Of a DNA stretch of 33,736 nt, positions 4,625-29,711 are shown piece after piece (the stretch's first letter is position 1; every line of letters starts with the position of its first letter). The translations under genes and the position numbers were made by a program. Source of the DNA: Desulfobacterales bacterium (lineage in GTDB: Bacteria; Desulfobacterota; Desulfobacteria; Desulfobacterales; Desulfolunaceae). The notes beneath the pieces are model-generated. The model had not been told where the DNA came from, made no database searches, and saw nothing but the letters and a program-made list of their open reading frames with translations. The stretch lies in NCBI GenBank assembly GCA_022360815.1, contig JAKSCC010000108.1:1-33736 (forward strand). Direction: 5' to 3'.

Positions 4625-4661
4625 ACCCCGAGCTGAAAAGAGGATCAGCCCGGGGTTTTTT
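4625..4661 (+). terminator. Rho-independent terminator after DUF1456 gene
   Basis: ACCCCG plus GCTGA (4625-4636) pair with TCAGC plus CGGGGT (4645-4656) around an 8-nt loop, with one A/C mismatch, followed by a run of six T (4656-4661). This is a textbook intrinsic terminator 37 bp after the stop. Confidence 0.9.
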
Positions 4662-4754: not shown

Positions 4755-6230
4755 CTATAGGCCAATGGGCATGCCCATGGCGGGCCAGACCACCAAAACA
4801 AAGAGGGCGGTGACCACCATAAGCAGAATGCTTGCGACACTTCCATAGAGGAAGAATTCACCGGTTGTGAATTGGCCGGAGTCGTAGGCAATGGCATTGG
4901 GAGCGGCCCCCACCAGAAGGAGGAAGGGCATGCCAGCGGTCACCAGAGAGGCAAAGAGGATCACCTCAGGAGCCACACCCAGATAGGGTGCGATAACCAG
5001 GGCCACGGGCAGCGAGATGGCGATGGCCGCCACGTTCATGATGAAGTTGGTCATGATCATGACAAAAAAGGCGATGCTCATGACAAAGATAAACCAGTGG
5101 GACTCTTTAAAGAGGGTGAGCCAGTTAACGGCCAGCCATTGGGCGGCTCCGGTTTCCCAAAGGCAAAATCCGATGCTCATGGCCCCGCCAAAAAGCAGAA
5201 TGATGTTCCAAGGGACTGCTTCCAAATCCTTGATATCGAGGATATTGAGGATAAAAAAGAGGATGGTGGAGACCAGAATAATGGCGGTTTTGTTGACCCC
5301 TGCCAATTGTGGCACAAACGATCGCAGCGAGAGGGTGAGCACGCAGCAACCGATGATAAGAGCGGAGATCACTTCAGAGCGGGTAATGGTGCCCATCTGG
5401 TCAAGCATCAGGCGGGAGCGCTCTTTAATCCCCTTGATGCGGGATCTTTCGGGTCTGAAGAAGAGCATGACAAGACCCCAAATGAGAAAAACCATGACCC
5501 ATCCCACGGGGAACATGTACCAGGAGAGCTCAAAAAAAGAGACTTCGCGGCCCACAATATCTTTGAAGAAACCGATGGCAACCGCTCCTCGAGCCGCACC
5601 CAGAAGGGTGATGATGGAGCCGGCTCCGGCCACGTAAGCCATACCGATAAAGAGCCCTTTGCCAAAGCGCGTGGGGTCTCGGTCTGTGGCGTAGACGGTG
5701 TGAACCGTCATGAGAAGGGGGTAGATGGTGGCTGCCACGGCGGTGTGGGCCATGATGTGGGTGAGGGCGGCTGTGACCACAAAGCAGCCCAGGTAGATCA
5801 TGCTGGTTTTTTCACCCACAATGGAGAGCATCTTGTAGGCGATGCGGCGAGTCAGGCCGGTTTTGGTGAAGACCATGCCGATGATAAGGGAGGCAAAGAT
5901 AAAGAGAACCGAAGGGTCCATGAAGTCTTTAAAAGCCCGGTTGGCCGGACGCACCATAAACATCACCTGAAGCACGCCGATGGTGATGCTGGTAATGCCG
6001 ATGGGAAGCACTTCAAAGACCCACCAGATGCCAGCCAGAAGAAAGATGGCAATGGCCCCTTTGCCCTGGGGAGAGAGTGCAAAGGGTTTTCCGTTGGGGT
6101 CCACAGCATCCGGCCAGGGGGGAGAGCCGTATACCAAGGCAAAGAGGCCGAGTCCTAAGCCAAGAAAGAGAAGGCGTTTCCAGTCGATGGATGTACTTGA
6201 GGCTTCTGTCTGCAATGTGTCGGTAACCAT
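4755..6230 (-). CDS. DASS (SLC13) sodium:anion symporter
   Basis: Inner-membrane transporter of 491 aa of the divalent anion:sodium symporter family, which moves sulfate or C4/C5 dicarboxylates. The start at 6230 (MVTDTLQTEAS) is preferred to the frame opening at 6392 because GGGAGA precedes it and the extra N-terminus would be low-complexity. About 11-12 hydrophobic segments are visible. Family signatures include TNFIMNVAAIAISLPVAL in the C-terminal half and VGAAPNAIAYDSGQFTTGEF near the end, the second ion/substrate-binding region, plus ILLFGGAMSIGF in the middle. It is last in a three-gene minus-strand operon behind two receiver-domain proteins, 46 bp after the small response regulator. 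This suggests uptake controlled by that signalling pair. The substrate cannot be decided: sulfate fits a sulfate reducer, dicarboxylate is equally possible. Confidence 0.9.
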   Translation of the reverse strand: MVTDTLQTEASSTSIDWKRLLFLGLGLGLFALVYGSPPWPDAVDPNGKPFALSPQGKGAIAIFLLAGIWWVFEVLPIGITSITIGVLQVMFMVRPANRAFKDFMDPSVLFIFASLIIGMVFTKTGLTRRIAYKMLSIVGEKTSMIYLGCFVVTAALTHIMAHTAVAATIYPLLMTVHTVYATDRDPTRFGKGLFIGMAYVAGAGSIITLLGAARGAVAIGFFKDIVGREVSFFELSWYMFPVGWVMVFLIWGLVMLFFRPERSRIKGIKERSRLMLDQMGTITRSEVISALIIGCCVLTLSLRSFVPQLAGVNKTAIILVSTILFFILNILDIKDLEAVPWNIILLFGGAMSIGFCLWETGAAQWLAVNWLTLFKESHWFIFVMSIAFFVMIMTNFIMNVAAIAISLPVALVIAPYLGVAPEVILFASLVTAGMPFLLLVGAAPNAIAYDSGQFTTGEFFLYGSVASILLMVVTALFVLVVWPAMGMPIGL

Positions 6231-6276
6231 ATGGATGTATCTCCCTGGTGTGTAAAAAACCGTCTGAGTGGGCTCT

Positions 6277-6711
6277 CTACCAGCCTTTTCGGTTGATGAG
6301 GTGGCTGATCTCCGCATCTTTGATGCGCTCTTCGTGTTCACATTTGCGGCGGTACGCTTGCTGGAGTTTTTCTGTGATGACCCCGATGTCACAGGGCTTC
6401 ATGAGAAAATCGAGGGCTCCGGCTTTCATGCCATCAATGGCACGCTCTACGGTGGCTTCTCCGGTGAGCATAAGAACGGGGATGAGGGGGTACTTCTCCT
6501 TGATTTTCAAAAGCGCTTCAGGCCCGCTCATCTCTGGCATCAGCACATCCAGAATGATCAGATCCACAGGTTCAGTATCCAAAAGGGCGAGGGCCTCAGG
6601 GCCCGAAGTGACGGATCTTGATTTAAAACCTCGCAATTCAAGGCGTTTGCTTAAGGTTTGGGCAAACGCCTCTTCATCGTCTACCACAAGGACAACAGGG
6701 GCGATGGGCAT
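6277..6711 (-). CDS. Single-domain response regulator
   Basis: CheY-like receiver protein of 144 aa with no output domain. The acidic pair Asp11-Asp12, phospho-acceptor Asp55 (IILDVLMPEMSG), Thr83 (LTGEA) and Lys105 (LMKPCD) are all present, so it should be phosphorylated by a histidine kinase and signal by protein contact. A basic and acidic C-terminal tail of about 25 residues (RRKCEHEERIKDAEISHL) follows the domain. The ATG at 6711 has AAGGAGAG before it. It lies between the kinase-like/receiver fusion and the DASS transporter, on the same strand. No histidine kinase gene is in the window, so the partner is unknown. Its receiver is similar in wording to the receiver of the upstream fusion (VVLVVDDEEAFAQTLSKRL against RVLLVDDEKEFTQTLSDRL), suggesting the two arose by duplication. 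Confidence 0.93.
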   Translation of the reverse strand: MPIAPVVLVVDDEEAFAQTLSKRLELRGFKSRSVTSGPEALALLDTEPVDLIILDVLMPEMSGPEALLKIKEKYPLIPVLMLTGEATVERAIDGMKAGALDFLMKPCDIGVITEKLQQAYRRKCEHEERIKDAEISHLINRKGW

Positions 6712-6730
6712 GGGTCTCTCCTTGTTTCGT

Positions 6731-6772
6731 AAGGGGCCTGTCCCTGTCTTCGGGTCGTGGGTACAGGCCCTT
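6731..6772 (-). repeat. Intercistronic hairpin in receiver/DASS operon
   Basis: AAGGGGCCTGT (6731-6741) pairs with ACAGGCCCTT (6763-6772), one base bulged, in the gap between the fusion gene stop (6793) and the small regulator start (6711). Neither side has a T tract in the direction of transcription, so it is more likely an mRNA processing or stability element than a terminator. Confidence 0.55.
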
Positions 6773-6792
6773 CTCTATTTGGTTGTGGATCG

Positions 6793-8007
6793 CTACGCTT
6801 TTTTGCGGGGCCGATTGGCCTCGTAGGCTGCCTTCATGGTTTCGGTGAGCAGATCGATGTCTGCAGGCTTTTGGAGATAGGCAAAAGCTCCCATGGAAAG
6901 ACACCTTTTTTTATCCTCTTCCGACCCATGTCCGGTGAGTATGATCACTTCAATGTTGGGTTTTTCTTCCCTTACTTTTTTAAGCACCTCATACCCGTTG
7001 ACTCCCGGCATTTTGAGGTCCAGAACCATCACATCGGTCTCCCCTTTTTCTGCAATGGAGAGAGCCTCTTCGCCTCCGTGGGCCACGGTGGGGGTTAAAT
7101 CCCGAAGGCGCAGACGATCGGAGAGGGTTTGGGTGAACTCTTTTTCATCGTCCACCAGAAGCACTCGAGGTGAGACCGGGGGATCGAAGTCGTACATGAC
7201 ATTGGCCTTGTAAAATCCTTTGCCGATGCGAGTTTCCGCCGATTTTACACCATCCACTTTCAAGGCCTCGTTTATTACCTTCTCTTTGAAGCGGCTCAGC
7301 ATCAGGACGTTTTTGTTTAAGGTGATCACCGCATGGCCCTTCTTGACGTCGGCCGAGAGCCCCTGGCCTGTTTCGATGAGGGCCATTTCCAGTCTGCAGG
7401 CGGTGTGGAAGTCGGTGAGGAGGGCTTTGGTTTGTGAAGGGTCAAGGGCGATGTGTGAGAGGCTTTTTTGGATGAGCTCTGCAGCTTTTTGGGGCTCAAT
7501 TTTATGGGTGGGGATAACCAGGTCGTAGAGCGAGGTGTCCCAGGCGCTTTTTCCGTGGAGATCGTGGCACCAGCCAAGGGTCACTTCATCGAGTCTGTTG
7601 AGAGCATTTTTTGCCTGGGTATCGGTTTGATTTTGGCGTTGCATGGCGGTGTGAATCCGATTTTTTCGATCGGCAATGATGAGACATCGAAGAACCACCG
7701 AAAGGCTTGCCGGGATGAGGTGGGCAGAAAGTCCCTTGATGATGACATCTTCGGTGAGGAGGATGCGGGAAAGGGTCAGCTTTATCGCCGCAAGGCTCTT
7801 TTCCCGCTCATGGGTGAAGCTATTGAAGGCTGGGGTGTGTCCGTTAAAGATGCGGTGGAGACTTCCAGACTTGAGGTGCTGCTGGTCCACGGCAAAAGCG
7901 ATGACGTCTTCGTCGGTAAAAACCTTCATTCCTGTTTCACGGGCAACGGCGCTGACAACGGGCTCGGCCTGACTGTAAACTCCGTGGGTGATGGCAAGAG
8001 ATGGCAT
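6793..8007 (-). CDS. Cytidylate kinase-like domain fused to receiver domain
   Basis: 404-aa fusion. Residues 1 to about 185 resemble the cytidylate-kinase-like family (Cytidylate_kin2): MPSLAITHGVYSQAEPVV in the P-loop place, TGMKVFTDEDVI, then VIIKGLSAHLIP, VVLRCLIIADRKNR, and SLYDLVIPTHKI before a helix of the 'AAELI' type. The glycine-rich Walker A GxxGxGK[ST] is absent, so catalysis is doubtful and a sensor or scaffold role is likely. Residues about 218-275 form a small BON-like or dodecin-like alpha/beta segment. Residues 280-400 are a complete receiver: Asp286-Asp287, phospho-acceptor Asp330, Thr358, Lys380. The ATG at 8007 follows GGAGG. It is the first gene of the operon and sits directly behind a sigma54-type promoter. 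The kinase-like call is from motif order and is less certain than the receiver. Confidence 0.85.
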   Translation of the reverse strand: MPSLAITHGVYSQAEPVVSAVARETGMKVFTDEDVIAFAVDQQHLKSGSLHRIFNGHTPAFNSFTHEREKSLAAIKLTLSRILLTEDVIIKGLSAHLIPASLSVVLRCLIIADRKNRIHTAMQRQNQTDTQAKNALNRLDEVTLGWCHDLHGKSAWDTSLYDLVIPTHKIEPQKAAELIQKSLSHIALDPSQTKALLTDFHTACRLEMALIETGQGLSADVKKGHAVITLNKNVLMLSRFKEKVINEALKVDGVKSAETRIGKGFYKANVMYDFDPPVSPRVLLVDDEKEFTQTLSDRLRLRDLTPTVAHGGEEALSIAEKGETDVMVLDLKMPGVNGYEVLKKVREEKPNIEVIILTGHGSEEDKKRCLSMGAFAYLQKPADIDLLTETMKAAYEANRPRKKA

Positions 8008-8061
8008 GGCGCCTCCTTAAGGTTAAAGTCACGTGGTTGCTCTGTCTTGCAAGGAAAGAAT

Positions 8062-8077
8062 GGCAAGGAATATGCCA
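8062..8077 (-). promoter_or_regulatory. Sigma54 (-24/-12) promoter of receiver/DASS operon
   Basis: Read on the minus strand, TGGCATATTCCTTGCC has the GG and GC doublets exactly 10 nt apart, close to the sigma54 consensus TGGCACG-N4-TTGCW. Transcription would start near 8051, leaving a leader of about 44 nt to the ATG at 8007. The two upstream 15-bp repeats (8142-8191) sit at about -90 to -140, the distance expected for activator-binding sites. Confidence 0.7.
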
Positions 8078-8141
8078 GGTTTTGTTTTTGATTTTGTTTC
8101 GGAGGGTTATGTGTGCGGGGGCTTTTTTATGATGCGAGGTG

Positions 8142-8191
8142 GCAACAAAATGAAACATAATGCGACAAGGCAGGGTGCAACAAAATGAAAC
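8142..8191 (-). promoter_or_regulatory. Two 15-bp direct repeats, probable activator sites
   Basis: The 15-mer GCAACAAAATGAAAC occurs twice without mismatch, at 8142-8156 and 8177-8191, 35 bp apart. On the minus strand it reads GTTTCATTTTGTTGC, with the half-sites GTTTC and GTTGC one helical turn apart. It lies upstream of a -24/-12 promoter, so it is best explained as a pair of upstream activating sequences for a sigma54-dependent activator. Confidence 0.65.
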
Positions 8192-8208: not shown

Positions 8209-10110
8209 TCAGAAATAGCGGTGAAACGAAAGGCCGCTTTGCCAGGCGTGGCTATGGTCTGAGGTATCATAGCGAGCCTGCAGACTGACTCGGTTGTTGG
8301 GAGTTAAAGCCAGACTGGTTTCAAGGGTGAGCGTGGAGCGGGTTGTGGCTTCGGGAAAGAGGCGCCAGAGATTGGCTTCAAAGTGGGTCTTTAAGGCGGG
8401 CGTGTGAAAGATAAGGCAACCCGATTTAAGACCTGTTCCCACAGCAGCGCCTTTTTCGAGGTGCTTGGACTCGGTGAATCTGGCTTCGGGAAGAAGGTAG
8501 ACAAGGGGTGTGGCCGGTAGATTAAGGCTCCAGGCCATGCCTGTGGCCGCTTTGATGGTAAAGGCACCCTTGTGGATTCCATCTTTCATAAGCATCTGAT
8601 CATAACCTATATGGGCGCTCCAGGAGAGCGGCTTGATAAAAAGATGACGAGGAGAAAGGGAGAGAAGGTCGAGGAGGGTGAACTGCTGGATAACCACGTT
8701 CTTCTCTTTTTCAGCATATCTTAACGTGGTTTCGAAAAACTCAATGGCAACGCCTTCCCGATCGGTGTGGTCGGCTCCCAGAAGATCGGTGAAGGCAGGC
8801 GCGAGGGTAAGCTCTCCAAAGGCGTTTTTCTCCTGAACTCCGGCTGAAAGGGTGATGCGGCTGGCTTTGTGGCCGGTGCTGGGCTCTGGTGGTTGGTGGG
8901 TTTGTTTTTTTGGGGGGGCCATGCCCAGGGATTGTCTTGCCCGTAAAGCAGGAAGGAAACGCTTTCGGTACTGCTGTCGCGTCATCTTTTTCTTTGCGTA
9001 TTTGTAGCGGATCACCTCCACTGCGAGATCAAGGATTTCTCTTTTTCGAGGTTTTGAGAGTGGGGTGTGGTTAAGGGTGCGGGGGGAGAGCTGACCCGTG
9101 ACGACCTGTTTTGCTCTTTGAAGGTCTTCGGCTGGCAGACGCTTAACAGCAGCTTGAATGCGGCTTCCCACCGAGGGGCGGTATCGGGCGTCGGTGATAA
9201 GTCCCTTTTGCTTCATCTGTCGAATGGTATCTATGGGGATCACCGTAAACCCCTTGGCTGCGGTGAGCTTAAGGCCGGGCCGGGCCGACTCCAGCAGAAA
9301 TTGAAGCATGTAGGAGCAGTTTTCATCAAAGAAGAAGTAGTCGCTTGAAATATTCCGCATCTCCAGAATATGGAGGGTCATGCGGCGGGTCTCCTCAGGG
9401 GTAAGCGTGAGAGGGTATTCCCAGATATCCCTTTGAGCCATGTCGCCATACTCCTGAATTTTTTTGTAGTAGGGCAAAATGGTGTAGTAGCCGGGAAAGA
9501 GCCCGAAGATACCCTTGAACATATAGGCAAAAGGGGAGTTTCCGTCGGGCAAAGCAGCGTAGTTGACAGCATCGGCCAATACCGGGCTCTGAAAGTCTGT
9601 CTCAATGGTGAGAAAGGAGTGGCCGAACATGGAGGCCGGGTTGTTGAGATGGTAGGTGGGAAAAACCAGGGTGGCCGAAGAGGGGGAAAGAGCATCGGCT
9701 TCGGGACAGAAAGGGGGAGGGCTTTGCATTAGATCGCCCAGTTCTTGATGAAGCCAGGTGAGACGGGCGATGAACCGGCAGGGTGATTCAGATTTTGCTG
9801 GCGTGCCGTAAAAAGTGGTGATGAGGGCTTCAAGCTCGGCCTTGGCGTCGTACTTTCCCTTCTTTGAGAGAAAGAAGTCGGGGTCATCCACCAAAGACTC
9901 ATAGGGGCTTTGATCTGCCGGGCAGTGGAGCAGGGTATGCCAGTAGGGCGACTCTGAAAGGTGTCTCTTGTGTGCAGCGGCAATGAGAGCCTGAGCGCTT
10001 TGAGCCTGGACAAAATGCGGCCAAATCAGAAGAAAAACCCCCGCCAAAAGAGAGAAGTGTTTTTTTGAACGGGGGCGGCTCGCTGCGTATGTTACACTAA
10101 ATTTGAGCAA
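8209..10110 (-). CDS. DUF4105 (Lnb-type) envelope protein with C-terminal barrel
   Basis: Predicted exported protein of about 633 aa. No good ATG exists: the frame is open to 10275 but overlaps the DUF3015 gene. A TTG at 10110 is chosen because GAGG lies 5 bp before it and it yields a basic, hydrophobic signal sequence (KKHFSLLAGVFLLIWPHFVQAQ). An ATG at 10173 without ribosome site is the alternative. The DUF4105/Lnb-like papain-fold domain spans about residues 70-300 and contains candidate catalytic His164 (NPASMFGHSFLTI) and Cys265 (FFDENCSYMLQF). The last 200 residues show alternating beta strands and end in Phe (FHRYF), a typical outer-membrane barrel end. It overlaps the DUF3015 gene end by 14 bp, so the two are probably co-translated. 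A peptidase or amidase role in the envelope is family-based inference. Confidence 0.8.
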   Translation of the reverse strand: MLKFSVTYAASRPRSKKHFSLLAGVFLLIWPHFVQAQSAQALIAAAHKRHLSESPYWHTLLHCPADQSPYESLVDDPDFFLSKKGKYDAKAELEALITTFYGTPAKSESPCRFIARLTWLHQELGDLMQSPPPFCPEADALSPSSATLVFPTYHLNNPASMFGHSFLTIETDFQSPVLADAVNYAALPDGNSPFAYMFKGIFGLFPGYYTILPYYKKIQEYGDMAQRDIWEYPLTLTPEETRRMTLHILEMRNISSDYFFFDENCSYMLQFLLESARPGLKLTAAKGFTVIPIDTIRQMKQKGLITDARYRPSVGSRIQAAVKRLPAEDLQRAKQVVTGQLSPRTLNHTPLSKPRKREILDLAVEVIRYKYAKKKMTRQQYRKRFLPALRARQSLGMAPPKKQTHQPPEPSTGHKASRITLSAGVQEKNAFGELTLAPAFTDLLGADHTDREGVAIEFFETTLRYAEKEKNVVIQQFTLLDLLSLSPRHLFIKPLSWSAHIGYDQMLMKDGIHKGAFTIKAATGMAWSLNLPATPLVYLLPEARFTESKHLEKGAAVGTGLKSGCLIFHTPALKTHFEANLWRLFPEATTRSTLTLETSLALTPNNRVSLQARYDTSDHSHAWQSGLSFHRYF

Positions 10111-10561
10111 GAACGCCTCGAATGGATTGTGCGACCTGCGCTTCACCCACACCGGCGTCGGGGTAAATGGCATCAAAATTGTCTTGCAGGGCTTTGCTTG
10201 CCTTGGCTTTGTCGACTCCTGAGAGTTGGGCCAGCTCCATGAGGGCATCCAAGCTTTCACCGTTGCCCATGGCAATATCTACGGCCAGGTTGTCCATATT
10301 GTCGGCCACGAAAATGTCCATGCGCTCATTCATGACAAAGTCAAAGGACTCTGAGCAGCCAAGAGTTCCAGAGGTCATGCCAAAGGTTTGGTTGCCGCTG
10401 ATACCGTTTAAGAACGTGCCCAGAAGGTTCCAAGCAAGGCCCTCTTTTTCACCGATGGCGACTCTGCCGAGACCGCATCCGCAATCTTCAGCCACCGTGG
10501 CTCCAAAGGAGGTGCCGGTAAGCACAAGAAGTGCTCCAAGGGTGATGATCCATTTTTTCAT
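10097..10561 (-). CDS. DUF3015 family periplasmic protein
   Basis: 154-aa exported protein with a clear signal peptide (MKKWIITLGALLVLTGTSFGA). The DUF3015 hallmarks follow: CGCGLGRVAIGEKEGLAWNLLG, then NGISGNQTFGMTSGTLGC, and a helical C-terminal half with a conserved-looking GNGESLDALMELAQLSG. Cys residues near positions 27, 29 and 69 may pair in the periplasm. Function of the family is unknown. The gene precedes and overlaps the DUF4105 gene, an arrangement that points to a shared envelope task. Start at 10561 with AGGGA ahead. An extended -10 promoter and a palindrome lie about 150 bp upstream. Confidence 0.9.
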   Translation of the reverse strand: MKKWIITLGALLVLTGTSFGATVAEDCGCGLGRVAIGEKEGLAWNLLGTFLNGISGNQTFGMTSGTLGCSESFDFVMNERMDIFVADNMDNLAVDIAMGNGESLDALMELAQLSGVDKAKASKALQDNFDAIYPDAGVGEAQVAQSIRGVLAQI

Positions 10562-19863: not shown

Positions 19864-20508
19864 TGCGAAAAGTACCCATCCTTTTTTTGTCCTAATAAAA
19901 CAGACTCTTGCCTTGCGTTGCGCGCTTGCGAGCATGCCATCTCGCCTTTACTATATACAGGTGGGAATAAAATGCCACACTGTGGATAGAATATACCTCT
20001 CCTTTCTTTAATTGTCTTAAAAATAAATTGGTTATACGGTTCTGTTTGGGGCGGCCTTTGCATGAGGTCGGCCCCATGCGTGGTAATTTTTGCACATTTT
20101 ACTCTCTTCTTGAATGTGCGCCTGCTTCAGTTCGGTCTTTTGAAGGGCATCTCTATTAAAAAGACGATGGCAAAACCAGGTAAGGGTCTTTTGATTTTGC
20201 ATGCTCTCCTTTGGCATTTTTATGTCATGGTAATCTTTCGAATATGTTGATGCGCGTGATTTAAGGCGTTGAGCATTTCGGGCTGGAAGGCCTTTTTTCC
20301 AAAAGAGCGTGACCAGGAACATCGGCTTTTTGCGGTTTTTTTTATTGGGTGTGGGTATTTTTTTGGAACGTGTGTTGCATTCTTGTAACGCTGTTCTTTA
20401 TGTATTACGATGTTAAAACAGTCTGCGGTATCTTCAGGAAGAGATGGCAATGATACCCACATGGTGTGTGGGAGATGATGGGACAAACAGACCTTTTTCG
20501 GAGCCGTT
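19864..20508. other. 645-bp intergenic region before sigma54 activator gene
   Basis: No gene is supported. It contains a small perfect palindrome CCACA-C-TGTGG (19975-19985), a hairpin with arms GCATG/CATGC around 20058-20077 and, near its end, the sigma54 promoter of the downstream activator gene. The rest is AT-rich sequence in which I see no further structure. Confidence 0.6.
20364..20389 (+). promoter_or_regulatory. Sigma54 (-24/-12) promoter of activator gene
   Basis: TGGAACGTGTGTTGCAT (20364-20380) places GG and GC exactly 10 nt apart, with TTGCA perfect at -12 and one mismatch at -24. Transcription would start near 20390, leaving about 118 nt of leader. The imperfect palindrome GTTGCA-N4-TGTAAC (20374-20389) overlaps the -12 element and could be an operator. 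The gene it serves encodes a sigma54-dependent activator, so autoregulation is possible. Confidence 0.7.
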
Positions 20509-22842
20509 ATGATTAGATCTTTAGAGATCAGCAAAAATGATCTTATGAAAGAGTTGGGCAAGGTGAATCGGTTTATAAAGATCCTTAGCCGGTGTAAAAA
20601 AGCCTTTATACATGAAAAGAATGAGAAGAGCCTACTTCAAGAGATCTGTAGAATCATTGTAGAAGTCGGCAATTTTCCTTTTGCTTGGGTGGGGTTTGCT
20701 GAAGACGATGAAAAAAAATCGGTGAGGCCCATGGCAAAGTATGGGTATGAAGAGGCCTATCTTCAGTCGATTGTGGCCACCTGGGACGAGGCCGACGAAA
20801 ATCTACCCCCTATGGGGATGGCGATTCGTTCCGGCGAGGTGTGCATCCTTTCCGATATAGATGCAGAAGAAAATTTTAAATCGTGGCAATACGAAGCGAT
20901 CATGCGCGGTTTCGGATCGGTGGTGGCCTTTCCCCTGGCATCCGAAGGCCAGAGATTGGGGGCGATCTCCATCTACGCCAGCAACTCCAACGCCTTTGAC
21001 TCCGAAAAAGTGGATCTTTTACGGGAGCTGGCCAACGACATCACCTGCGGCATACTCAATATCAGATCCCAGGAGGAGGGGGCTCTCATTAAAACCCTTC
21101 TCAAGGAGACAGAGGCCAAGTACAGCGGGGTTCTGGAAAATACAGGAACAGGAACCATCCTCATTGAAAACGATGAGATGATCTCCTTTGCCAACTCCAC
21201 CTTTGAGACCTACAGCGAATACACCGCAGCCGAGCTGATTGATCGCATGAAGTGGTCGGATGTGATCCATGAAGACGATCAGAGGCGGCTCTCCCGTTAC
21301 CACCACTGGCGGAGACACGAGCCGGGCCGTGCACCCGATGTGTACGAATGCAAAATGGTCACCAAAGGCCAGAAGATCAAAAACATGTTGATGAAGGTGG
21401 GAATGGTCAAGGGGACCCAAATCAGCATCGCCTCGTTTATGGATATCACCTACGCGAAACTCGCCGAGGATCGTCTTAAACAGAGGGAATCTCAGCTTCA
21501 GGCCATCATTGAGAATTTTGACGGAATGGTCTGTATTCGGGACATGGACCATCGCATTGAGTTTATGAACAAGCCTTTGGTGGATTTTATCGGGTCAGAG
21601 CCCAGGGGAAAGCTTTGCTACAATGTGATTCATCATCGGGATGCTCCCTGTCCCTGGTGCCCCAACGATACCCTCTCCCAGGGAAAGTCCATAAAAAAAG
21701 TGGTGAAATGTGCCTCTACCCAGCGGTGGTACGATTCGGTTATTTCTCCGATTTACAGCTCAGATGGCTCGGTGAATCGCGTTCAGGCCATTATTCGCGA
21801 TGTGACCGAGCAGAAAATTGCCGAAGAGGCTTTGCTTGAGCGCGAGAAAGACCTGCTTCAAGAGAACATTCGTTTGAAGTCCACCATGAAGGATCGGTAT
21901 AAGTTTGGCGACATCGTGGGGAAAAGCCCAGCCATGCAGACCGTTTATGAGATGATTTTGAAGTCTTCTGCCACCGAGGATCACATAATTATCTATGGGG
22001 AGTCGGGAACAGGCAAAGAGCTTGTGGCAAAGGCCATTCACGATGCCAGCAGCCGGGCCGATAAAAATTTTGTTCCGGTCAACTGTGGTGCCATCAACGA
22101 AAACATCATCGAAAGAGAGTTTTTTGGGCATAAGAAGGGGGCCTTCACTGGTGCCGATGGAGACCATGAAGGCTTTTTGGACAAAGCGGACGGTGGGACC
22201 CTTTTTTTGGATGAAATTGGAGAGATTGGACTCAACATGCAGGTGAAGCTGCTAAGGGCCATCGATGGAGGAGGCTACACCCCAGTGGGAAGCAATGAGG
22301 TGAAAAAGCCCAATTTACGTATCATTTCAGCCACGAACCGGAATCTTTTGGAGCATGTCAAAGCCAACATGATGCGAGAAGATTTTTTTTACCGCATCCA
22401 TGTTATTCCTATCTATCTTAAGCCGCTTAGAGAACGGAAAGAGGATTTGCCACTTCTTATTGACCACTTTTTGAATAAATTTTCGCCGGATATGAAAACG
22501 CCTCCCATAACCGGTAAATTGCTGGAATCCATCAACCACTACCATTGGCCGGGGAATGTGCGGGAACTCCAAAATACCCTGCGCCGTTTTATCTCCCTTA
22601 AAGAATTGAACTTTAATGCCAGCTTAAGCCATGAGCTCTCTTCAGGACGGGAAAAGCACTTTTCTTCAAATCGTGAGGAGGAGATACGCGATTTGAAAAC
22701 CGTTATGGAAGAGTATGAAAAGCGTATCTTGACCGATGTGCTTCAAAAGTGTCGTTGGAATCGCAAGCAAGCCTCGATTGCCCTTAATATTCATCGCAAG
22801 ACCCTTTTTGGCAAAATGAAAAAATACAACCTCATGGGCTGA
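20509..22842 (+). CDS. Sigma54-dependent activator, GAF-PAS-PAS-AAA+-Fis
   Basis: 777-aa transcription factor that opens sigma54 promoters using ATP. Order: GAF domain (about 40-190), PAS1 (about 203-318), PAS2 (about 325-440), a short linker helix, AAA+ domain (about 467-700) and Fis-type helix-turn-helix (about 745-775, CRWNRKQASIALNIHRKTL). The AAA+ part is complete: Walker A GESGTGKE (497-504), the sigma54-contact GAFTGA (544-549) and Walker B TLFLDEIGE (564-572). PAS2 has a cysteine cluster, Cys370, Cys381 and Cys384 (DAPCPWC), which may bind metal or sense redox. There is no receiver domain, so it probably senses a ligand directly. GGAG precedes the ATG at 20509. It lies upstream of, and on the same strand as, the beta-oxidation genes, which it may control. 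Confidence 0.95.
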   Translation: MIRSLEISKNDLMKELGKVNRFIKILSRCKKAFIHEKNEKSLLQEICRIIVEVGNFPFAWVGFAEDDEKKSVRPMAKYGYEEAYLQSIVATWDEADENLPPMGMAIRSGEVCILSDIDAEENFKSWQYEAIMRGFGSVVAFPLASEGQRLGAISIYASNSNAFDSEKVDLLRELANDITCGILNIRSQEEGALIKTLLKETEAKYSGVLENTGTGTILIENDEMISFANSTFETYSEYTAAELIDRMKWSDVIHEDDQRRLSRYHHWRRHEPGRAPDVYECKMVTKGQKIKNMLMKVGMVKGTQISIASFMDITYAKLAEDRLKQRESQLQAIIENFDGMVCIRDMDHRIEFMNKPLVDFIGSEPRGKLCYNVIHHRDAPCPWCPNDTLSQGKSIKKVVKCASTQRWYDSVISPIYSSDGSVNRVQAIIRDVTEQKIAEEALLEREKDLLQENIRLKSTMKDRYKFGDIVGKSPAMQTVYEMILKSSATEDHIIIYGESGTGKELVAKAIHDASSRADKNFVPVNCGAINENIIEREFFGHKKGAFTGADGDHEGFLDKADGGTLFLDEIGEIGLNMQVKLLRAIDGGGYTPVGSNEVKKPNLRIISATNRNLLEHVKANMMREDFFYRIHVIPIYLKPLRERKEDLPLLIDHFLNKFSPDMKTPPITGKLLESINHYHWPGNVRELQNTLRRFISLKELNFNASLSHELSSGREKHFSSNREEEIRDLKTVMEEYEKRILTDVLQKCRWNRKQASIALNIHRKTLFGKMKKYNLMG

Positions 22843-23021
22843 TGGGGTTGTATTGCCTTTCAAAAGGCCGTGTGGCTATACGCCACTATTGTGAATCCCT
22901 TCCGCCTTTACCTCCCCACCACAGCTACCTGTAGCTCCGGTCATTTCTTTGTATTGTATGATCGTTGAAATGTCAGATGTGCAAAATCCTGTACCCTATG
23001 AAATCCCAACTTTTCTGAATG

Positions 23022-23044
23022 AAAGAGCGGTTTGGCTCTTTTTT
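23022..23044 (+). terminator. Rho-independent terminator downstream of activator gene
   Basis: AAAGAGC (23022-23028) pairs with GCTCTTT (23035-23041) around a 6-nt loop, and the T run extends to 23044. It lies about 180 nt after the activator stop, separating it from the thiolase operon. Confidence 0.8.
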
Positions 23045-23366
23045 GCTTGATCGCCCCCTTATGAAGTCATCCCTTACTGAAATTAGGGGCCTCTTTATGT
23101 GTGGGGATTTGCAAATTTTTCTGGGGAAATATTTTTTAATTTAAGCGGGTTGGGTTGTGTCTGGGTGGTTTGGATAGGTTTTGCCACATATTTCGCATAA
23201 AAGTCTTTTTGTTTGTATTTGTTTAAATTTTAAGTGGTTGTGTGAAACCCTTTTTAAGGGGAGGGGGCGGCAATACCCCGGTTTAAAGGGGAACGGAAAG
23301 GCTTTGTTGAGATGGTGTGTCTGTTATTTCTTGATATATTAAATGCTTGCCTTGGGTTTTTCTGTG

Positions 23367-23383
23367 TTGGTATGCGGTGTGCA
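23367..23383 (+). promoter_or_regulatory. Candidate sigma54 promoter of beta-oxidation operon
   Basis: TTGGTATGCGGTGTGCA places GG and GC 10 nt apart. The -24 side keeps TGG, A and G of the consensus, and the -12 side is GTGCA instead of TTGCA, so it is a weaker match than the one before the activator gene. The start would be near 23393, 89 nt before the thiolase ATG. The adjacent activator makes it plausible. Confidence 0.4.
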
Positions 23384-23481
23384 ATGCGGGATTTGCGTGA
23401 TGATTCGTTTTGTAAAGGAGCCCTGCCGTACTTGCGATGGGGCTGATTTTGAGCTGGCAAACCAAAGCTGAGGAGTGATTT

Positions 23482-24843
23482 ATGTCTGACGTTGTTCAAA
23501 AAATGGAAGTCAAAAGATCCGAAGTTTACAAAGATGCTCGCATTTCAGAGTTTGGTGAAAGAAAACCCGATTTCACAACCATGGGAAAAAATTTTGGCAA
23601 TCGGTTTAAAGCCCATCGCGATGTGGTTGTGGTGGAGGCGTGCCGAACCCCTTACGGCGTGATTGGCGGTCAGTTAAAGCAGTACGATGCACCGGAGCTG
23701 GGTGCCATGGCCATCAAAGAGGTGTTGCGGCGTATGGAGGGCAAGGTGACTGCCGAAGATATCGATTATGTGGTCATGGGCCAGGTGGTGCCTGCGGGTT
23801 GCGGTCAGGTTCCCGGTCGTCAGGCCACCATTCTTGCCGGAATTCCAGAGTCGGTGCCTTCCATTACCGTGAACAAGGTGTGCTCTTCAGGAATAAAAAC
23901 CATCGATTTGGCAGCCCAAATGATTCAACTGGGTCGTGCCGATATCTGCATTGCCGGCGGACAGGAGAGTATGAGCAACTGTCCTTACGCTCTTCCCAAT
24001 ATGCGGTTTGGCCAGCGCATGGCTCTTCCCAATGGAGAGCTCAAAGATCTGATGGTCTACGATGGGCTGTGGGATGCCTTTTACAATCGTCATATGGCCA
24101 TCCACGGGTCTGAGACCAGCGATGAGTTCGGTTTTGATCGTGAGGCAAATGACGAGTGGGCCCTTCACTCTCAGCTTGCAGCCGTCGCCGCCATGGAAGC
24201 TGGAAAGCTCGACGATGAAATTTTTCCCGTGGAGTTTCGAAAGGGGAAAAAGGTGGAGGTGATGACAAAGGATGAGGGGCCCCGTCCTTCAAGCACCATG
24301 GAAGGTCTCGCCAAGCTACCTCCGGTGTTTGGTCACAAGAGCACGGTGACAGGAAAACCGGGAAGCGTGACAGCAGGCAACGCTCCTGGCGTTAACGACG
24401 GCGGCGATGTTTGTCTTATGATGAGCCGCGAAAAGGCCGACGAGCTTGGCTTAAAGCCTCTTTTTTCCATCGTCGATTATGCCGAAGTCTCTCAGCCCAC
24501 CAAAGATATTGCAACGGTTCCCGGCCTTTCCATCAAGAAGGTTCTCGATCAGAACAACCTCACCTACAAAGACATGGATCTCATTGAAATCAACGAAGCC
24601 TTTGCTGCCGTGGCACTGGTGAGCTCCCGTTCTATTTTGGGCATGTCCAAAGAGGAGATGTTTGAAAAGGTTAATGTCAATGGCAGTGCCATCGCCTATG
24701 GCCATCCCATTGGTGCCACCGGTGCGCGCATTGTGATGACCCTTGCCTACGAGCTGAGGCGCCGCGGTGGAGGCATTGGGGTTTGCGGTATCTGCTCGGG
24801 ACACGCCCAGGGTGACGCCATGCTGATTCAGGTGGAGCCCTAA
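23482..24843 (+). CDS. Thiolase (acetyl-CoA C-acetyl/acyltransferase)
   Basis: 453-aa thiolase that cleaves acetoacetyl-CoA or 3-ketoacyl-CoA with CoA, or runs in reverse. The nucleophile is Cys134 in NKVCSSG; NEAFAAV begins at Asn371, His408 lies in GHPIGATGAR, and Cys438 is the acid/base Cys in the last motif. That last motif reads CSGHAQGDAM, where the usual wording is C-x-GGGxGxA; His replaces a glycine. Compared with ordinary thiolases of about 392 aa there is a polar N-terminal extension of about 45 residues before HRDVVVVEACRTPYG. AGGAG precedes the ATG at 23482 and no ATG exists at the usual start, so the extension is likely real. First gene of the six-gene cluster. Chain-length preference cannot be read. 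Confidence 0.94.
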   Translation: MSDVVQKMEVKRSEVYKDARISEFGERKPDFTTMGKNFGNRFKAHRDVVVVEACRTPYGVIGGQLKQYDAPELGAMAIKEVLRRMEGKVTAEDIDYVVMGQVVPAGCGQVPGRQATILAGIPESVPSITVNKVCSSGIKTIDLAAQMIQLGRADICIAGGQESMSNCPYALPNMRFGQRMALPNGELKDLMVYDGLWDAFYNRHMAIHGSETSDEFGFDREANDEWALHSQLAAVAAMEAGKLDDEIFPVEFRKGKKVEVMTKDEGPRPSSTMEGLAKLPPVFGHKSTVTGKPGSVTAGNAPGVNDGGDVCLMMSREKADELGLKPLFSIVDYAEVSQPTKDIATVPGLSIKKVLDQNNLTYKDMDLIEINEAFAAVALVSSRSILGMSKEEMFEKVNVNGSAIAYGHPIGATGARIVMTLAYELRRRGGGIGVCGICSGHAQGDAMLIQVEP

Positions 24844-24901
24844 AGGTTCTTTTGTTGCGGAAGATCGTTTCTACGTAAGAGGACGTTAAAGTTCGAACCT
24901 T
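24843..24901 (+). repeat. Inverted repeat in thiolase-dehydrogenase gap
   Basis: AAGGTTC (24843-24849) and GAACCTT (24895-24901) are perfect arms separated by 45 nt, just after the thiolase stop and before the AAGGAGGG of the next gene; the palindrome GTTCGAAC (24891-24898) overlaps the second arm. No T tract follows. It may be a stability or processing element in the polycistronic mRNA. Confidence 0.35.
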
Positions 24902-24923
24902 GAAATAGTAAGGAGGGAGTCGC

Positions 24924-25778
24924 ATGGAAATCAAGAAGATTATGGTTATCGGAGCTGGACAGATGGGGGGCGGAATTGCTCAAGTTTCTGCTCAAGCAGG
25001 TTTTGAGACCGTTCAATACGATATCAATATGGAATTGGTGGAAAAGGGCATGGCTGTGATGGAGAAAAATCTTAATCGCAGTCTTTCCAAGGGCAAAATC
25101 ACCGAAGAGGAGAAGGCTCAAATTCTGGGACGGATTACCCCTTCGGTAAGTCTTGAAGATGCCGCAGGTTGCGACCTTGTGATTGAGGCCATTGTGGAGA
25201 ATATGGAGGTCAAGGCCAAGGTGTTCTCTGAGTTGGATCGCATCGCCCCACCCCACGCTATCTTGGCCACCAATACGTCATCACTTCCCATCACTCAGAT
25301 CGCAGCGTGCACGAAACGCCCCGAAAAGGTGATCGGCATGCACTTTATGAATCCGGTTCCGGTGATGAAGCTGGTGGAGGTGATCCGCGGCATCGCTACC
25401 AGCGACGAGGTCTACGAGATTATTGAAAAAACCTCCGAAAAGATGGGGAAAATTCCCGTGGAGTGCAAAGATGTGCCCGGCTTTGTCTCCAACCGCGTGC
25501 TTCAGGTGATGATCAACGAAGCCCTTTGGGAGCTCTACGAAGGGGTGGCCACTGCCGAAGGGATCGACAACATCATGAAGCTGGGCATGAACCATCCCAT
25601 GGGTCCTCTGGCACTGGCCGATTTGATTGGACTGGATACCGTTCTGGCCATCTTAAAGGTGCTTCAAGACGGGTATGGTGATTCAAAATACAGGCCTTCT
25701 CCTCTGCTGAATCAGTATGTCAACGCCGGCTGGCTGGGACGCAAAACGGGCAAAGGCATCTACGACTACAGCCATTGA
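24924..25778 (+). CDS. hbd: 3-hydroxybutyryl-CoA dehydrogenase
   Basis: 284-aa NAD(P)-dependent cytoplasmic enzyme, the usual length for short-chain 3-hydroxyacyl-CoA dehydrogenases of the Hbd/PaaH type. It interconverts 3-hydroxybutyryl-CoA and acetoacetyl-CoA. The dinucleotide-binding GxGxxG is [10 protein letters not shown] (10-19). The catalytic pair is His140 ([17 protein letters not shown]) and Glu152, with Ser119 in [14 protein letters not shown] starts the C-terminal helical domain, and the protein ends [14 protein letters not shown], a family signature. AAGGAGGG precedes the ATG at 24924. It follows the thiolase by 80 bp and sits in the natural pathway order. Confidence 0.95.
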
Positions 25779-25848
25779 TGCTTTTTTATGACAGACGCAT
25801 TGCCTTTACCTTGAACCATCAGATCCCCAGGCGGGGAAAGGAGTGATA

Positions 25849-27018
25849 ATGGGTTTTCAAATCAGCAAAGAGCAACAGATGATTCAAAAGATGGCCCGCG
25901 AATTTGCAAGAAAAGAGTTGGCGGAAAAGGCAGAAGAGCGGGATCGAAACCATGAATATCCGGCAGACAGTCTGAAGAAGATGGGAGAGCTGGGTCTGTT
26001 GGGTATGCTCGTCTCGGAAAAATATGGCGGGGAAGATATGGGGACACTGGCCTACTCCCTGGCCCTTACGGAGATCGCCTATTCGTGTGCGTCCACAGCG
26101 GTGATCATGTCGGTTCACAACTCCATCTGCTGCGGTAGCATTGAACGATTTGGCACCGAAGAGCAGAAAGAGACTTTCCTTCGTCCTATGGCGGCCGGTG
26201 AGTTTATCGGAGCTTTTGCTCTCACCGAGCCCGAGGCGGGATCTGATCCTCAGTCCATGACATGCACAGCCGAAAAGGATGGGGACCATTACATTATCAA
26301 TGGAACCAAACGATTTATTACAAGCGGTAAAAATGGTGGGGTGGTGATTCTCTTGGCTCGTACGGCCCCCACGGGAAGCAAAGGGATTACCGCCTTTCTG
26401 GCCACTCCGGATCTTCCCGGATTTGAGGTGGGCCGAGTGGAAGACAAAATGGGGCAGTGTGCCTCGGATACCGTGGATTTGAACTTCACCAATTGTCGTA
26501 TTCCTGCCTCCAGAATGCTTGGTAAGGAGGGCGAAGGGTTTTTGGTCGCCATGTCGGGTCTTGATGCCGGACGAATTGGCATCGCATCCCTTGCCCTGGG
26601 GATTGGGATGGCCGCTTTGGATGAGGCGAAAAAATACGCGAAACAACGTGAACAGTTTGGTCGGGCCATTGGTGAATTCCAGGGGATTCGCTGGATGTTG
26701 GCAGACATGGCCATGGACGTGGAGGCCGCCCGCCTTCTGGTGCTGAACGCTGCCGCCACCAAGGAGAGGGGGGAGAATTGCACGGCTCAGGCTTCCATGG
26801 CCAAGTGCTTTGCCTCAGAAATGGCCCAGCGCGTGACAGGACAGGCCATTCAGATTCACGGTGGGTACGGCTACACCAAGGAGTATCCCGTGGAGCGTTT
26901 CTATCGCGATGCTCGAATTACAACCATCTATGAGGGAACCAATCAGGTTCAGCGTATCGTGATCGCAAATGATTTGATGAAGGATAAGAAGAAGAAAAAA
27001 GGAAAAGCCGCAGCCTAA
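25849..27018 (+). CDS. Short-chain (butyryl-CoA type) acyl-CoA dehydrogenase
   Basis: 389-aa FAD enzyme that oxidises butyryl-CoA or another short acyl-CoA to the trans-2-enoyl-CoA and passes electrons to ETF. The start is the ATG at 25849, with AGGAG 6 bp ahead; a GTG at 25843 is the alternative. Both family signatures are present: GAFALTEPEAGSD and QIHGGYGYTKEYPVERFYRD. The catalytic base is Glu362 in IYEGTNQVQR. The protein ends in an unusual lysine-rich tail (KDKKKKKGKAAA) beyond the usual C-terminus, which could aid interaction with membrane or partner. ETF genes are not in the window. Short-chain preference is inferred from length and neighbours. Confidence 0.94.
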   Translation: MGFQISKEQQMIQKMAREFARKELAEKAEERDRNHEYPADSLKKMGELGLLGMLVSEKYGGEDMGTLAYSLALTEIAYSCASTAVIMSVHNSICCGSIERFGTEEQKETFLRPMAAGEFIGAFALTEPEAGSDPQSMTCTAEKDGDHYIINGTKRFITSGKNGGVVILLARTAPTGSKGITAFLATPDLPGFEVGRVEDKMGQCASDTVDLNFTNCRIPASRMLGKEGEGFLVAMSGLDAGRIGIASLALGIGMAALDEAKKYAKQREQFGRAIGEFQGIRWMLADMAMDVEAARLLVLNAAATKERGENCTAQASMAKCFASEMAQRVTGQAIQIHGGYGYTKEYPVERFYRDARITTIYEGTNQVQRIVIANDLMKDKKKKKGKAAA

Positions 27019-27102
27019 AGACCTGCTTTGGATTCATCGCAGATAGGGCTATTTTTTGTCTTGCCTGCGATGAAGACAGGCAACAAACCCAAGGAGATGA
27101 AG

Positions 27103-28080
27103 ATGGGTAAACCACAGAAAATCGGTTTAAGTGAGGCCATCGCGAAGATACATGATGGGGATATGTTGACCTTCAGTGGATTTACAATCTGGCGACGTCC
27201 CATGGCGGCCATCTACGAACTCATTCGTCAAAAGAAAAAAGAGCTTCATCTGGTGGAGGTCAATGGGGGAACCCACAGTGACCTTCTGATCGGCGCAGGT
27301 TGCGTCAAGATATGGGAGTCGTGTTGGATTGGCCATGAACTCTACGGCAAGATTGGAGCCAATCTGGCCCGAAAGGCCGAAGCGGGCGAGGTGGTCATTG
27401 AAGATTACTCCCATGTCCAGGTTTTGGCGCGTCTTACAGCCGGGTCCATGGGTCTTCCCTATATGCCCACCTATGCCAGCATGGGGACCGATATGCTGAA
27501 TCCCGCCTTTGATCATCTGGGCAAGCTGGGTTTAAGGGATGGCAGCCATCCCAAGATCCCTAAGCTGAAGGTGGACTTTGCCGAAGATCCCTTTTACGGA
27601 AGCCAGCTTCTCCACATTCCGGCCTGTAACCCGGATTGGTGCATCGCCCATGTTCAGATGGTGGGGGAAGAGGGGACGGTTCGAGTACATGGACAGCAGT
27701 ATTCGGACTCCGAGGCCATCAAGGCGTCGGACAATGTGATTGTCATTGCCGAGCAGGTGGTAACCGAAGAGTACATTCGGCGTGAGCCCACCCACAACTT
27801 GGTTCCCGGTCATCAGGTGGACTACATCGTTGAGCTTCCTTGGGCCGGGCACCCCACCGGGTGTTACGGTGAGTATGAGGCCGACGGGGATTTTATTCGC
27901 AACTTTTACAACACCACCAGAAGCCAGGAAGGGCTTGACACTTGGGTGGATGAGTGGGTGATGGGTGTGGATGATTTCGATGCCTATCTTCAAAAGATCG
28001 GGATTGAACGGCTTGAGACCCTTCGAGCCAATCCGGCGTTGGGCTATTCCACCAAGGTGAAAAGGGGGGCACGCGCATGA
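27103..28080 (+). CDS. CoA-transferase family I, subunit A
   Basis: 325-aa alpha subunit of a heteromeric class I CoA-transferase of the glutaconate CoA-transferase (GctA) or 3-oxoadipate type. The start at 27103 is chosen among several ATGs because AAGGAG lies 6 bp before it. GLSEAIAKIHDGDMLTFSGFT at the N-terminus, the WRRPMAAIYELIR helix and NGGTHSDLLIGAG are typical of subunit A. Its stop overlaps the start of subunit B by 4 bp (ATGA), ensuring balanced synthesis. Within this cluster it probably transfers CoA from acetyl-CoA or another acyl-CoA to butyrate or a similar acid for activation. The exact substrates are not decided by sequence. Confidence 0.9.
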   Translation: MGKPQKIGLSEAIAKIHDGDMLTFSGFTIWRRPMAAIYELIRQKKKELHLVEVNGGTHSDLLIGAGCVKIWESCWIGHELYGKIGANLARKAEAGEVVIEDYSHVQVLARLTAGSMGLPYMPTYASMGTDMLNPAFDHLGKLGLRDGSHPKIPKLKVDFAEDPFYGSQLLHIPACNPDWCIAHVQMVGEEGTVRVHGQQYSDSEAIKASDNVIVIAEQVVTEEYIRREPTHNLVPGHQVDYIVELPWAGHPTGCYGEYEADGDFIRNFYNTTRSQEGLDTWVDEWVMGVDDFDAYLQKIGIERLETLRANPALGYSTKVKRGARA

Positions 28081-28883
28081 AAAATCCAAACTATGTCAAA
28101 CCAGGTGAATTTAAGTCGATCGACCTTTTGGCCGTTGCCGCAGCTCGTGAGGTGCATGACGGGGACATTGTTTTTGCAGGCACCGGACTTCCCATGCTGG
28201 CCATTGTGTTGGCTCAGCACAACAACTCCCCCAATGCGGTGTGCATCTATGAGGCGGGAAGCGTTGACGGGCGCCCCATCTCCTTACCAACCTCCGTTGG
28301 AGACGCCAGGTGCAGCTATCAGGCCTCCATCGCCTCAGGGCTTTCCGATGTGTTCAATCAGCTTCAGCGTGGGGTTGTGGATCTCGCCTTTCTCGGGGGG
28401 GCCGAGGTGGACAAGTACGGCAACGTCAACACCACAGGGATGGGAGAGTATGGCATGGTCCCTGAAAAACGCCTTACCGGCAGCGGGGGCAACTCCGATA
28501 TCAATGGTTTGGCTCGCAAGACGGTGTTCATCATGCCGCAGGAGAAGCGTCGATTTAAAGAGAAAGTCGATTTTATCACCTCTCCGGGATGGAAGATTCC
28601 CAAGTGGCCCGGGGGCGAGATGGTTTCCAAAAAAGAGGTCTACAACAAGGCCTTTAGGGGAGGACCCTCTGCGGTGATCTCCAACATGGCGGTTTTCCGG
28701 TTTGACGAAAACGGTGAGATGTATCTGGATACCTATCATCCCGGAACGACCCCGGAGGAGGTAAAGGAGCATTGTAGCTTTGATCTCAATATATCTCAGG
28801 TCAAAGGTGAGACAGAGCTTCCAACCTATGAGGAGCTCGATCTTCTCTACAACGTCATAGATCCCGAAGGGATTTTTTTGTGA
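28077..28883 (+). CDS. CoA-transferase family I, subunit B
   Basis: 268-aa beta subunit paired with the preceding gene. The catalytic glutamate that forms the CoA thioester is most likely Glu59 in VCIYEAGSVDGRP, the position of the active-site Glu in GctB-type subunits. The GxGxPxxA segment is FAGTGLPMLAIVLA, and FLGGAEVDKYGNVNTTG is the conserved loop. It starts in the ATGA overlap with subunit A (28077) without a separate strong ribosome site, which points to translational coupling. The partner and substrates follow subunit A. Confidence 0.9.
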   Translation: MKNPNYVKPGEFKSIDLLAVAAAREVHDGDIVFAGTGLPMLAIVLAQHNNSPNAVCIYEAGSVDGRPISLPTSVGDARCSYQASIASGLSDVFNQLQRGVVDLAFLGGAEVDKYGNVNTTGMGEYGMVPEKRLTGSGGNSDINGLARKTVFIMPQEKRRFKEKVDFITSPGWKIPKWPGGEMVSKKEVYNKAFRGGPSAVISNMAVFRFDENGEMYLDTYHPGTTPEEVKEHCSFDLNISQVKGETELPTYEELDLLYNVIDPEGIFL

Positions 28884-28919
28884 TTGCCGAAGAAGAGATG
28901 GCAGAGACAAGGAGATTTT

Positions 28920-29711
28920 ATGGCATACAAACACATTCTAATGGAGACCCAGGGCGGTATTGCCACTTTGACGTTTAACAGGCCCAAAGCTTTGAATGCT
29001 TTGAATAGCGAACTGTTGGATGAGGTGTGTGACGCGCTGGAAAGGGTTGGAGAAGACGAAGAAATTCGCGTCCTGATTTTGACCGGTGCAGGTGATAAGG
29101 CCTTTGTGGCAGGAGCCGATATCAGTGAGCTTGCGACCTTTACACCACTTCAGGGAAAGCGCTTCGCCTGCAGGGGGCATGAAGTGATGAACCGGCTTCA
29201 GGCCCTATCCATTCCTGTGATTGCCGCTGTCAATGGCTTTGCCCTTGGGGGAGGCAGTGAAATGGCCCTTGCCTGTGATTTTATCTACGCATCGGAAAAG
29301 GCAAAGTTTGGTCTGCCCGAAGAGAACCTGGGGCTGATTCCTGGTTTTGGGGGCACCCAGCGTCTTTCCAGGCAGGTGGGGAAAAGCATGGCCAAAGAGC
29401 TTATCTTTACCGCAAGAATGATTTCTGCTGAGGAGGCCTTAAACCTGGGGCTTGTCAACCGTATCTGCCGTCAGGATGAGCTCATGGATGAGGTGCGAAA
29501 GGTCGCCTTGTCCATTGCAGACAAGGGGCGGGTTGCCATTCGTGCGGCCAAACAGGTGGTCAATCGCGGGATGGACGTGGATTTGGCCACGGCCTGTCAA
29601 CTGGAGATTGACGCCTTTGCCCTCTGCATGGCCAGCGAAGATTCCCGTGAAGGAACCCTGGCTTTTATGGAGAAGCGCAAAGCCTCCTTTAAAGGAAAGC
29701 TGAATGGGTAA
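28920..29711 (+). CDS. Enoyl-CoA hydratase (crotonase)
   Basis: 263-aa crotonase-fold enzyme that hydrates crotonyl-CoA to 3-hydroxybutyryl-CoA. The start at 28920 has AAGGAG 6 bp ahead, better than the in-frame ATG at 28884. Both catalytic glutamates are in place: Glu114 in GGGSEMALACD and Glu134 in GLPEENLGLIPGFGG; the oxyanion loop AGADISEL lies at 65-72. NGFALGGG and GTQRLSR complete the family profile. It closes the cluster in a logical position: acyl-CoA dehydrogenase gives enoyl-CoA, this enzyme gives 3-hydroxyacyl-CoA, then Hbd and the thiolase. A hairpin follows the stop. Chain-length preference cannot be proven by sequence. Confidence 0.95.
   Translation: MAYKHILMETQGGIATLTFNRPKALNALNSELLDEVCDALERVGEDEEIRVLILTGAGDKAFVAGADISELATFTPLQGKRFACRGHEVMNRLQALSIPVIAAVNGFALGGGSEMALACDFIYASEKAKFGLPEENLGLIPGFGGTQRLSRQVGKSMAKELIFTARMISAEEALNLGLVNRICRQDELMDEVRKVALSIADKGRVAIRAAKQVVNRGMDVDLATACQLEIDAFALCMASEDSREGTLAFMEKRKASFKGKLNG

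Follow-up and report, generated by a model that had tools for sequence, protein, structure and literature searches.

The three-gene operon in this stretch of DNA (the window, one whole contig of 33.7 kb) is a variant of a described cluster type and, judging from sequence comparisons, would form the transporter end of a conserved module with which sulfate-reducing Desulfobacterota control their sulfate uptake, import being tuned by a Cache-kinase phosphorelay and by nucleotide or energy status, a reading to which we assign a probability of roughly 65%. Its three genes follow one another on the minus strand, with a sigma54 promoter ahead of them and a terminator-like stem behind (Table 1), and encode, in this order, a fusion of a CMP-kinase-like domain, a BON-like domain and a receiver, then a stand-alone receiver, and finally a transporter of the DASS family. 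Apart from the BON-like domain, an earlier note on this DNA had proposed this arrangement, and domain matches bore it out. The fusion is a core component of the cluster that is not discussed in the literature searched, and a search for papers on the pairing of a cytidylate kinase-like domain with a response regulator found nothing.

Table 1. Features of the operon, with positions counted along the window.
Feature	Positions	Strand	Remarks
DASS transporter gene, 491 aa	4755..6230	-	A161-H162-T163 and M398-N399-V400 in place of SNT motifs
Stand-alone receiver gene, 144 aa	6277..6711	-	Response_reg 99.1 bits
Fusion gene, 404 aa	6793..8007	-	CMP-kinase-like, BON-like, receiver
Fusion, CMP-kinase-like fold, ~aa 1-186	7450..8007	-	phosphate-loop GK lost
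Fusion, BON-like domain, ~aa 187-262	7222..7449	-	basis: model topology
Fusion, receiver domain, aa 279-401	6805..7173	-	D286, D287, D330, T358 and K380 all kept
Stem-loop in gap between fusion and receiver genes	6732..6770	-	gap itself 6712-6792
Terminator-like stem behind DASS gene	4625..4656	-	12 pairs, then CCTTTT
sigma54 promoter TGGCATATTCCTTGC	8063..8077	-	TGGCAT-N5-TTGC; canonical 5-base spacer; predicted start ~8051
Proximal 15-bp repeat GTTTCATTTTGTTGC	8142..8156	-	candidate upstream activator site
Distal 15-bp repeat GTTTCATTTTGTTGC	8177..8191	-	candidate upstream activator site; identical to proximal

The promoter and the repeats above it characterize the DASS-type loci. A sigma54 promoter, with GG and GC elements that lie ten bases apart and are kept in relatives, stands upstream of the fusion gene in 11/11 DASS-type loci examined. 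The earlier note had placed such a site here with a spacer of eight bases; the site holds, the spacer is five bases long, and the start near position 8051 that it gave agrees with the one predicted by counting from the -24/-12 elements. The two perfect 15-bp repeats that it reported proved exact at 8142-8156 and 8177-8191, and with one mismatch allowed the 15-mer occurs in the 4.2-Mb genome at these two sites and one more. The repeats consist of GTTTCAT units at a spacing of about 10 bases, located some 55 to 125 bases upstream of the promoter, and GTTTCAT-type repeats are, like the promoter, kept in the 11/11 DASS-type loci examined. A motif of this type gave 33 matches in 462 kb, mostly just upstream of the fusion gene, and 0 in mononucleotide-shuffled sequence; promoter and repeats recur beyond chance. 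As the promoter is scarce in SulP-type loci (2/67 SulP genes and 0/85 fusion genes), sigma54 control is confined to the DASS branch. Further down the operon, the gap between the fusion and receiver genes also folds in relatives, with differing sequences, and the likely start of the DASS gene is the ATG at 6230, preceded by GGGAG.

In genomes of the same genus, the operon genes belong to a longer cluster with the order PAS-sigma54-Fis activator, Cache kinase, receiver, short kinase-like protein, fusion, receiver, DASS and Mnh genes, and a divergent arm of the DASS branch adds a second kinase, a receiver-sigma54 activator, another Cache kinase, a receiver and a second DASS. The short protein (about 220 aa) matched HisKA weakly and no ATPase domain, and may resemble a ChpT-type histidine phosphotransferase. 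Genes of a Mrp-type Na+/H+ antiporter (MnhE, MnhB, MnhC and MnhD-type; L035:39-4232) follow DASS in the same-genus genomes, and in one locus (L045 of genome G001), where no DASS was detected within the 20-kb stretch, Mrp-type genes directly follow the fusion. Several DASS-type loci carry a small protein between the activator and kinase genes (as at L164:6663-7022), with a weak, sub-cut-off match to Dinitrogenase iron-molybdenum cofactor (0.00023). In the host genome these genes are dispersed: the Cache-type kinase, the receiver and the short histidine-kinase-like protein lie on contig C295, away from the operon, and a gene 75% identical to the PAS-sigma54-Fis activator of relatives reaches the end of contig C9. 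The link of the operon to its kinase and activator therefore rests on the relatives.

The gene set, the promoter, the repeats and the gene associations can be read from the sequences; for the signals, phosphate path, ligand and substrate of this module, we infer the following scheme. The Cache kinase would sense an outside signal, probably sulfate, and would phosphorylate the receivers, perhaps through the short histidine-kinase-like protein, while the kinase-like domain of the fusion would bind a nucleotide without phosphorylating it and would report energy state or the AMP or APS from sulfate activation. The receivers would contact the PAS-sigma54-Fis activator or the transporter, protein to protein, the activator would bind the repeats and open the promoter, and the DASS protein would bring in sulfate with sodium, whose gradient the Mrp antiporter encoded downstream in relatives may restore.

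Both receivers carry the acidic pair, the phosphoacceptor aspartate, the threonine and the lysine of response regulators (D11, D12, D55, T83 and K105 in the complete active site of the stand-alone one), and no DNA-binding domain appeared among the Pfam matches of either. The earlier note had taken the system to have no DNA-binding output; since the activator of the relatives' cluster is encoded elsewhere in this genome, on contig C9, such an output probably exists, and that claim is not supported. The strongest alternative, to which we give somewhat less than an even chance, is that the receivers target the transporter or CBS proteins directly, at the post-translational level, and play no role in transcription. 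It would fit receivers devoid of DNA-binding domains and the CBS-protein gene that adjoins DASS in the loci of several relatives (in the host genome a REC-CBS protein is encoded on contig C92 and none in the window operon), and the activator, which carries a PAS domain but lacks a receiver, may answer a signal of its own. Against it, the module also has sigma54 activators, one type of which does carry a receiver. The sulfate-uptake module that we favour permits either route, transcriptional or direct, and the data do not separate it from this post-translational alternative.

The distribution of the fusion connects it to sulfate reducers and to anion transporters. An orthologue is present in 8/8 genomes of the family, a family match at 1e-15 was obtained in 209/291 genomes of the order (a count that includes stand-alone relatives), and 50/395 genomes of the phylum contain the fusion itself. 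Because aprA is nearly universal within the order (258/291), co-occurrence was tested at the phylum level, where aprA was found in 46 of the 50 genomes with the fusion compared to 117 of the 345 without it (p = 1.3e-15); the four fusion genomes in which it went undetected may be incomplete. Among 76 named loci, 71 have a SulP gene (PF00916) immediately upstream of the fusion and 64 have a Cache kinase gene immediately downstream; these loci were collected for their similarity to a single SulP-type member, which biases the sample to that type. A second, less SulP-biased sample came from a phylum-wide draw of 50 fusion loci, 46 of which had enough flank: SulP or DASS lies within 6 kb of 41/46 fusions and in 0/20 control regions (Fisher p = 1.3e-12), two of the remaining fusions have TSUP only, and three have no SulP, DASS or TSUP nearby. 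This is the conserved association in relatives for which the earlier note had asked. On the fusion tree, SulP and DASS partners separate by one change.

The cluster type itself appears in a 2025 paper, whose main text describes DASS and SulP sulfate-uptake clusters of Desulfobacteraceae that also encode Cache kinases, response regulators, and CBS or TetR proteins, and independently proposes sulfate as the substrate (PMC11887813). The earlier note's view of an undescribed system is thus too broad for the cluster type and stands, with respect to that main text, for the fusion, the promoter, the repeats and the activator: the main text mentions none of these for such clusters, nor the Mrp genes. 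The DASS cluster presented there for Desulfosarcina variabilis and further Desulfobacteraceae shares with the clusters of our relatives DASS genes, two-component genes, Cache kinases and a proposed role in sulfate uptake, a likeness drawn from the published description, which calls the regulators 'WalR type'. Its two-component and CBS-protein genes are numerous; of the latter, several relatives have one near DASS and the window operon has none. The SulP/TetR cluster of that text has its counterpart in our SulP-type loci, where the same fusion family stands next to receivers, a Cache kinase and the short histidine-kinase-like protein; these loci differ from the window in that SulP replaces DASS, a TetR gene is present and the sigma54 promoter is missing. 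The main text of the Desulfovibrio vulgaris sigma54 regulome paper names neither a cytidylate kinase nor a DASS gene (PMC4641369).

The earlier note had left the substrate as sulfate or a dicarboxylate. The DASS protein matches Na_sulph_symp (168 bits) and exceeds the curated cut-off of TIGR00785 (210.1 versus 198.6 bits), which places it in that family, and orthologues with 67-76% identity were found in 12/12 genomes of the order chosen for the test. It is doubtful that a dicarboxylate or some other anion is the substrate of this protein, with the operon tuning carbon uptake. Such a role would agree with its closest solved relatives by sequence, which include the dicarboxylate carrier VcINDY, and with the range of the DASS family overall, which spans dicarboxylates, sulfate and phosphate (PMC5840216). 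However, AHT and MNV replace both substrate-site SNT motifs of VcINDY in every window-type DASS aligned, setting these proteins outside the VcINDY type; this weakens the dicarboxylate reading and argues, at the level of sequence, that the window protein is not a classical dicarboxylate carrier, sulfate not being thereby proven. The other partner of the fusion is a SulP permease and the fusion tracks aprA, both of which also speak against carbon uptake. Of the two candidates, sulfate is the likely one and the window transporter would probably carry it. A published study treats DASS proteins of sulfate reducers as candidate sulfate carriers and reports expression of two of them, HRM2_38230/38300, when sulfate is low (PMC5840216). 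With the AHT/MNV signature, this DASS group can be told from dicarboxylate carriers. The host genome also encodes a second DASS protein of 618 aa (L048:10978-14412, contig C92); next to its gene come those of an uncharacterised 209-aa protein and then of the receiver-CBS protein.

In the fusion, residues 5-168 match PF13189 Cytidylate_kin2 (60.1 bits against a cut-off of 28) and residues 282-390 match Response_reg (93.3 bits). A structure model of the full-length protein had a mean pLDDT of 85. Searched whole against the PDB it returned receivers only, so residues 1-275 were folded (pLDDT 88) and searched alone. The best structural matches of this part were the uncharacterised kinase-like proteins 3hdt (Z 18.6) and 3fdi (Z 18.1), followed by CMP kinases with Z of about 13 to 14 (2h92, 14.0; 1kdo, 13.5), and the N-terminal model thus shows the CMP-kinase fold. 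Beyond the kinase-like part, the model shows a helix-strand-strand-helix-strand order; Pfam gave no BON match in the window protein and a weak one in one fusion, and a stand-alone relative of the same genome scored over the BON cut-off (33.1 bits). A very divergent kinase-like relative of 358 aa without a Pfam match (L035:13299-14375), which has its own sigma54-like site, heads the divergent arm, and profile comparison related it to the N-terminal part of the fusion with a probability of 95.6%.

What sets the fusions apart from stand-alone PF13189 proteins, with which they share the CMP-kinase-like fold, is the receiver and the phosphate loop. Most of the stand-alone relatives read keep GxxxxGK-like loops and have no receiver; the GK is absent from 45/45 aligned fusion members, whose loops are of the SGxFCxxE type or further variants. 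The kinase-like domain is thus probably incapable of phosphate transfer, which upholds the proposal in the earlier note of an input domain without phosphoryl transfer. That the fusion is instead a working nucleotide kinase under the control of its receiver seems to us improbable, slightly more so than carbon uptake: the fold and the many invariant residues of the domain (including F61, N62, T65, E69, R117 and D162) would suit an enzyme, and PF13189 proteins could use another phosphate-binding arrangement, but at the level of sequence the GxxxxGK of the stand-alone relatives is lost in all aligned fusions.

SulP and DASS are unrelated transporters, and the fusion points to one regulator shared by both. 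We tentatively suggest, as a possibility clearly less probable than the module itself, that a nucleotide-kinase fold that has lost catalysis, joined to a receiver, gives sulfate-reducing Desulfobacterota a common inner sensor for their sulfate uptake and matches import through SulP and DASS to AMP, APS or energy state. The main text of the 2025 paper ties APS sensing to CBS proteins, as a speculation (PMC11887813). Sulfate reduction in marine sediments begins with sulfate uptake, and our literature search found no experimental test of how these bacteria control that step; the fusion offers concrete targets for one, namely the ligand of the kinase-like domain, the order of the phosphorelay and the activator sites.

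The operon appears to have relocated as a unit with its own promoter and repeats, as the genes that flank it in the window are far apart in relatives. That distance, together with the 360 contigs and the estimated contamination of 8.4% of the 4.2-Mb host genome, might suggest an assembly artefact of the metagenome bin, which is very unlikely given a window that is a single whole contig, an operon complete with promoter, repeats and terminator, and a fusion 59-62% identical to those of congeners. The upstream neighbour gene (8209-10275) matches Lnb_N, DUF7840 and DUF7843; in the sole single-contig relative (G003), some 1 Mb separates it from the fusion gene. In-frame stops in the relatives of this gene were only apparent, the reading having begun before the likely start or run past the gene end. 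Elsewhere in the window, a GAF/PAS sigma54 activator gene (20509-22842, with a sigma54-like site at 20364) is followed at 23482-28883 by genes for a thiolase, a 3-hydroxyacyl-CoA dehydrogenase, an acyl-CoA dehydrogenase and two CoA-transferases, and an open reading frame at 28884-29711 ends this stretch (20509-29711).
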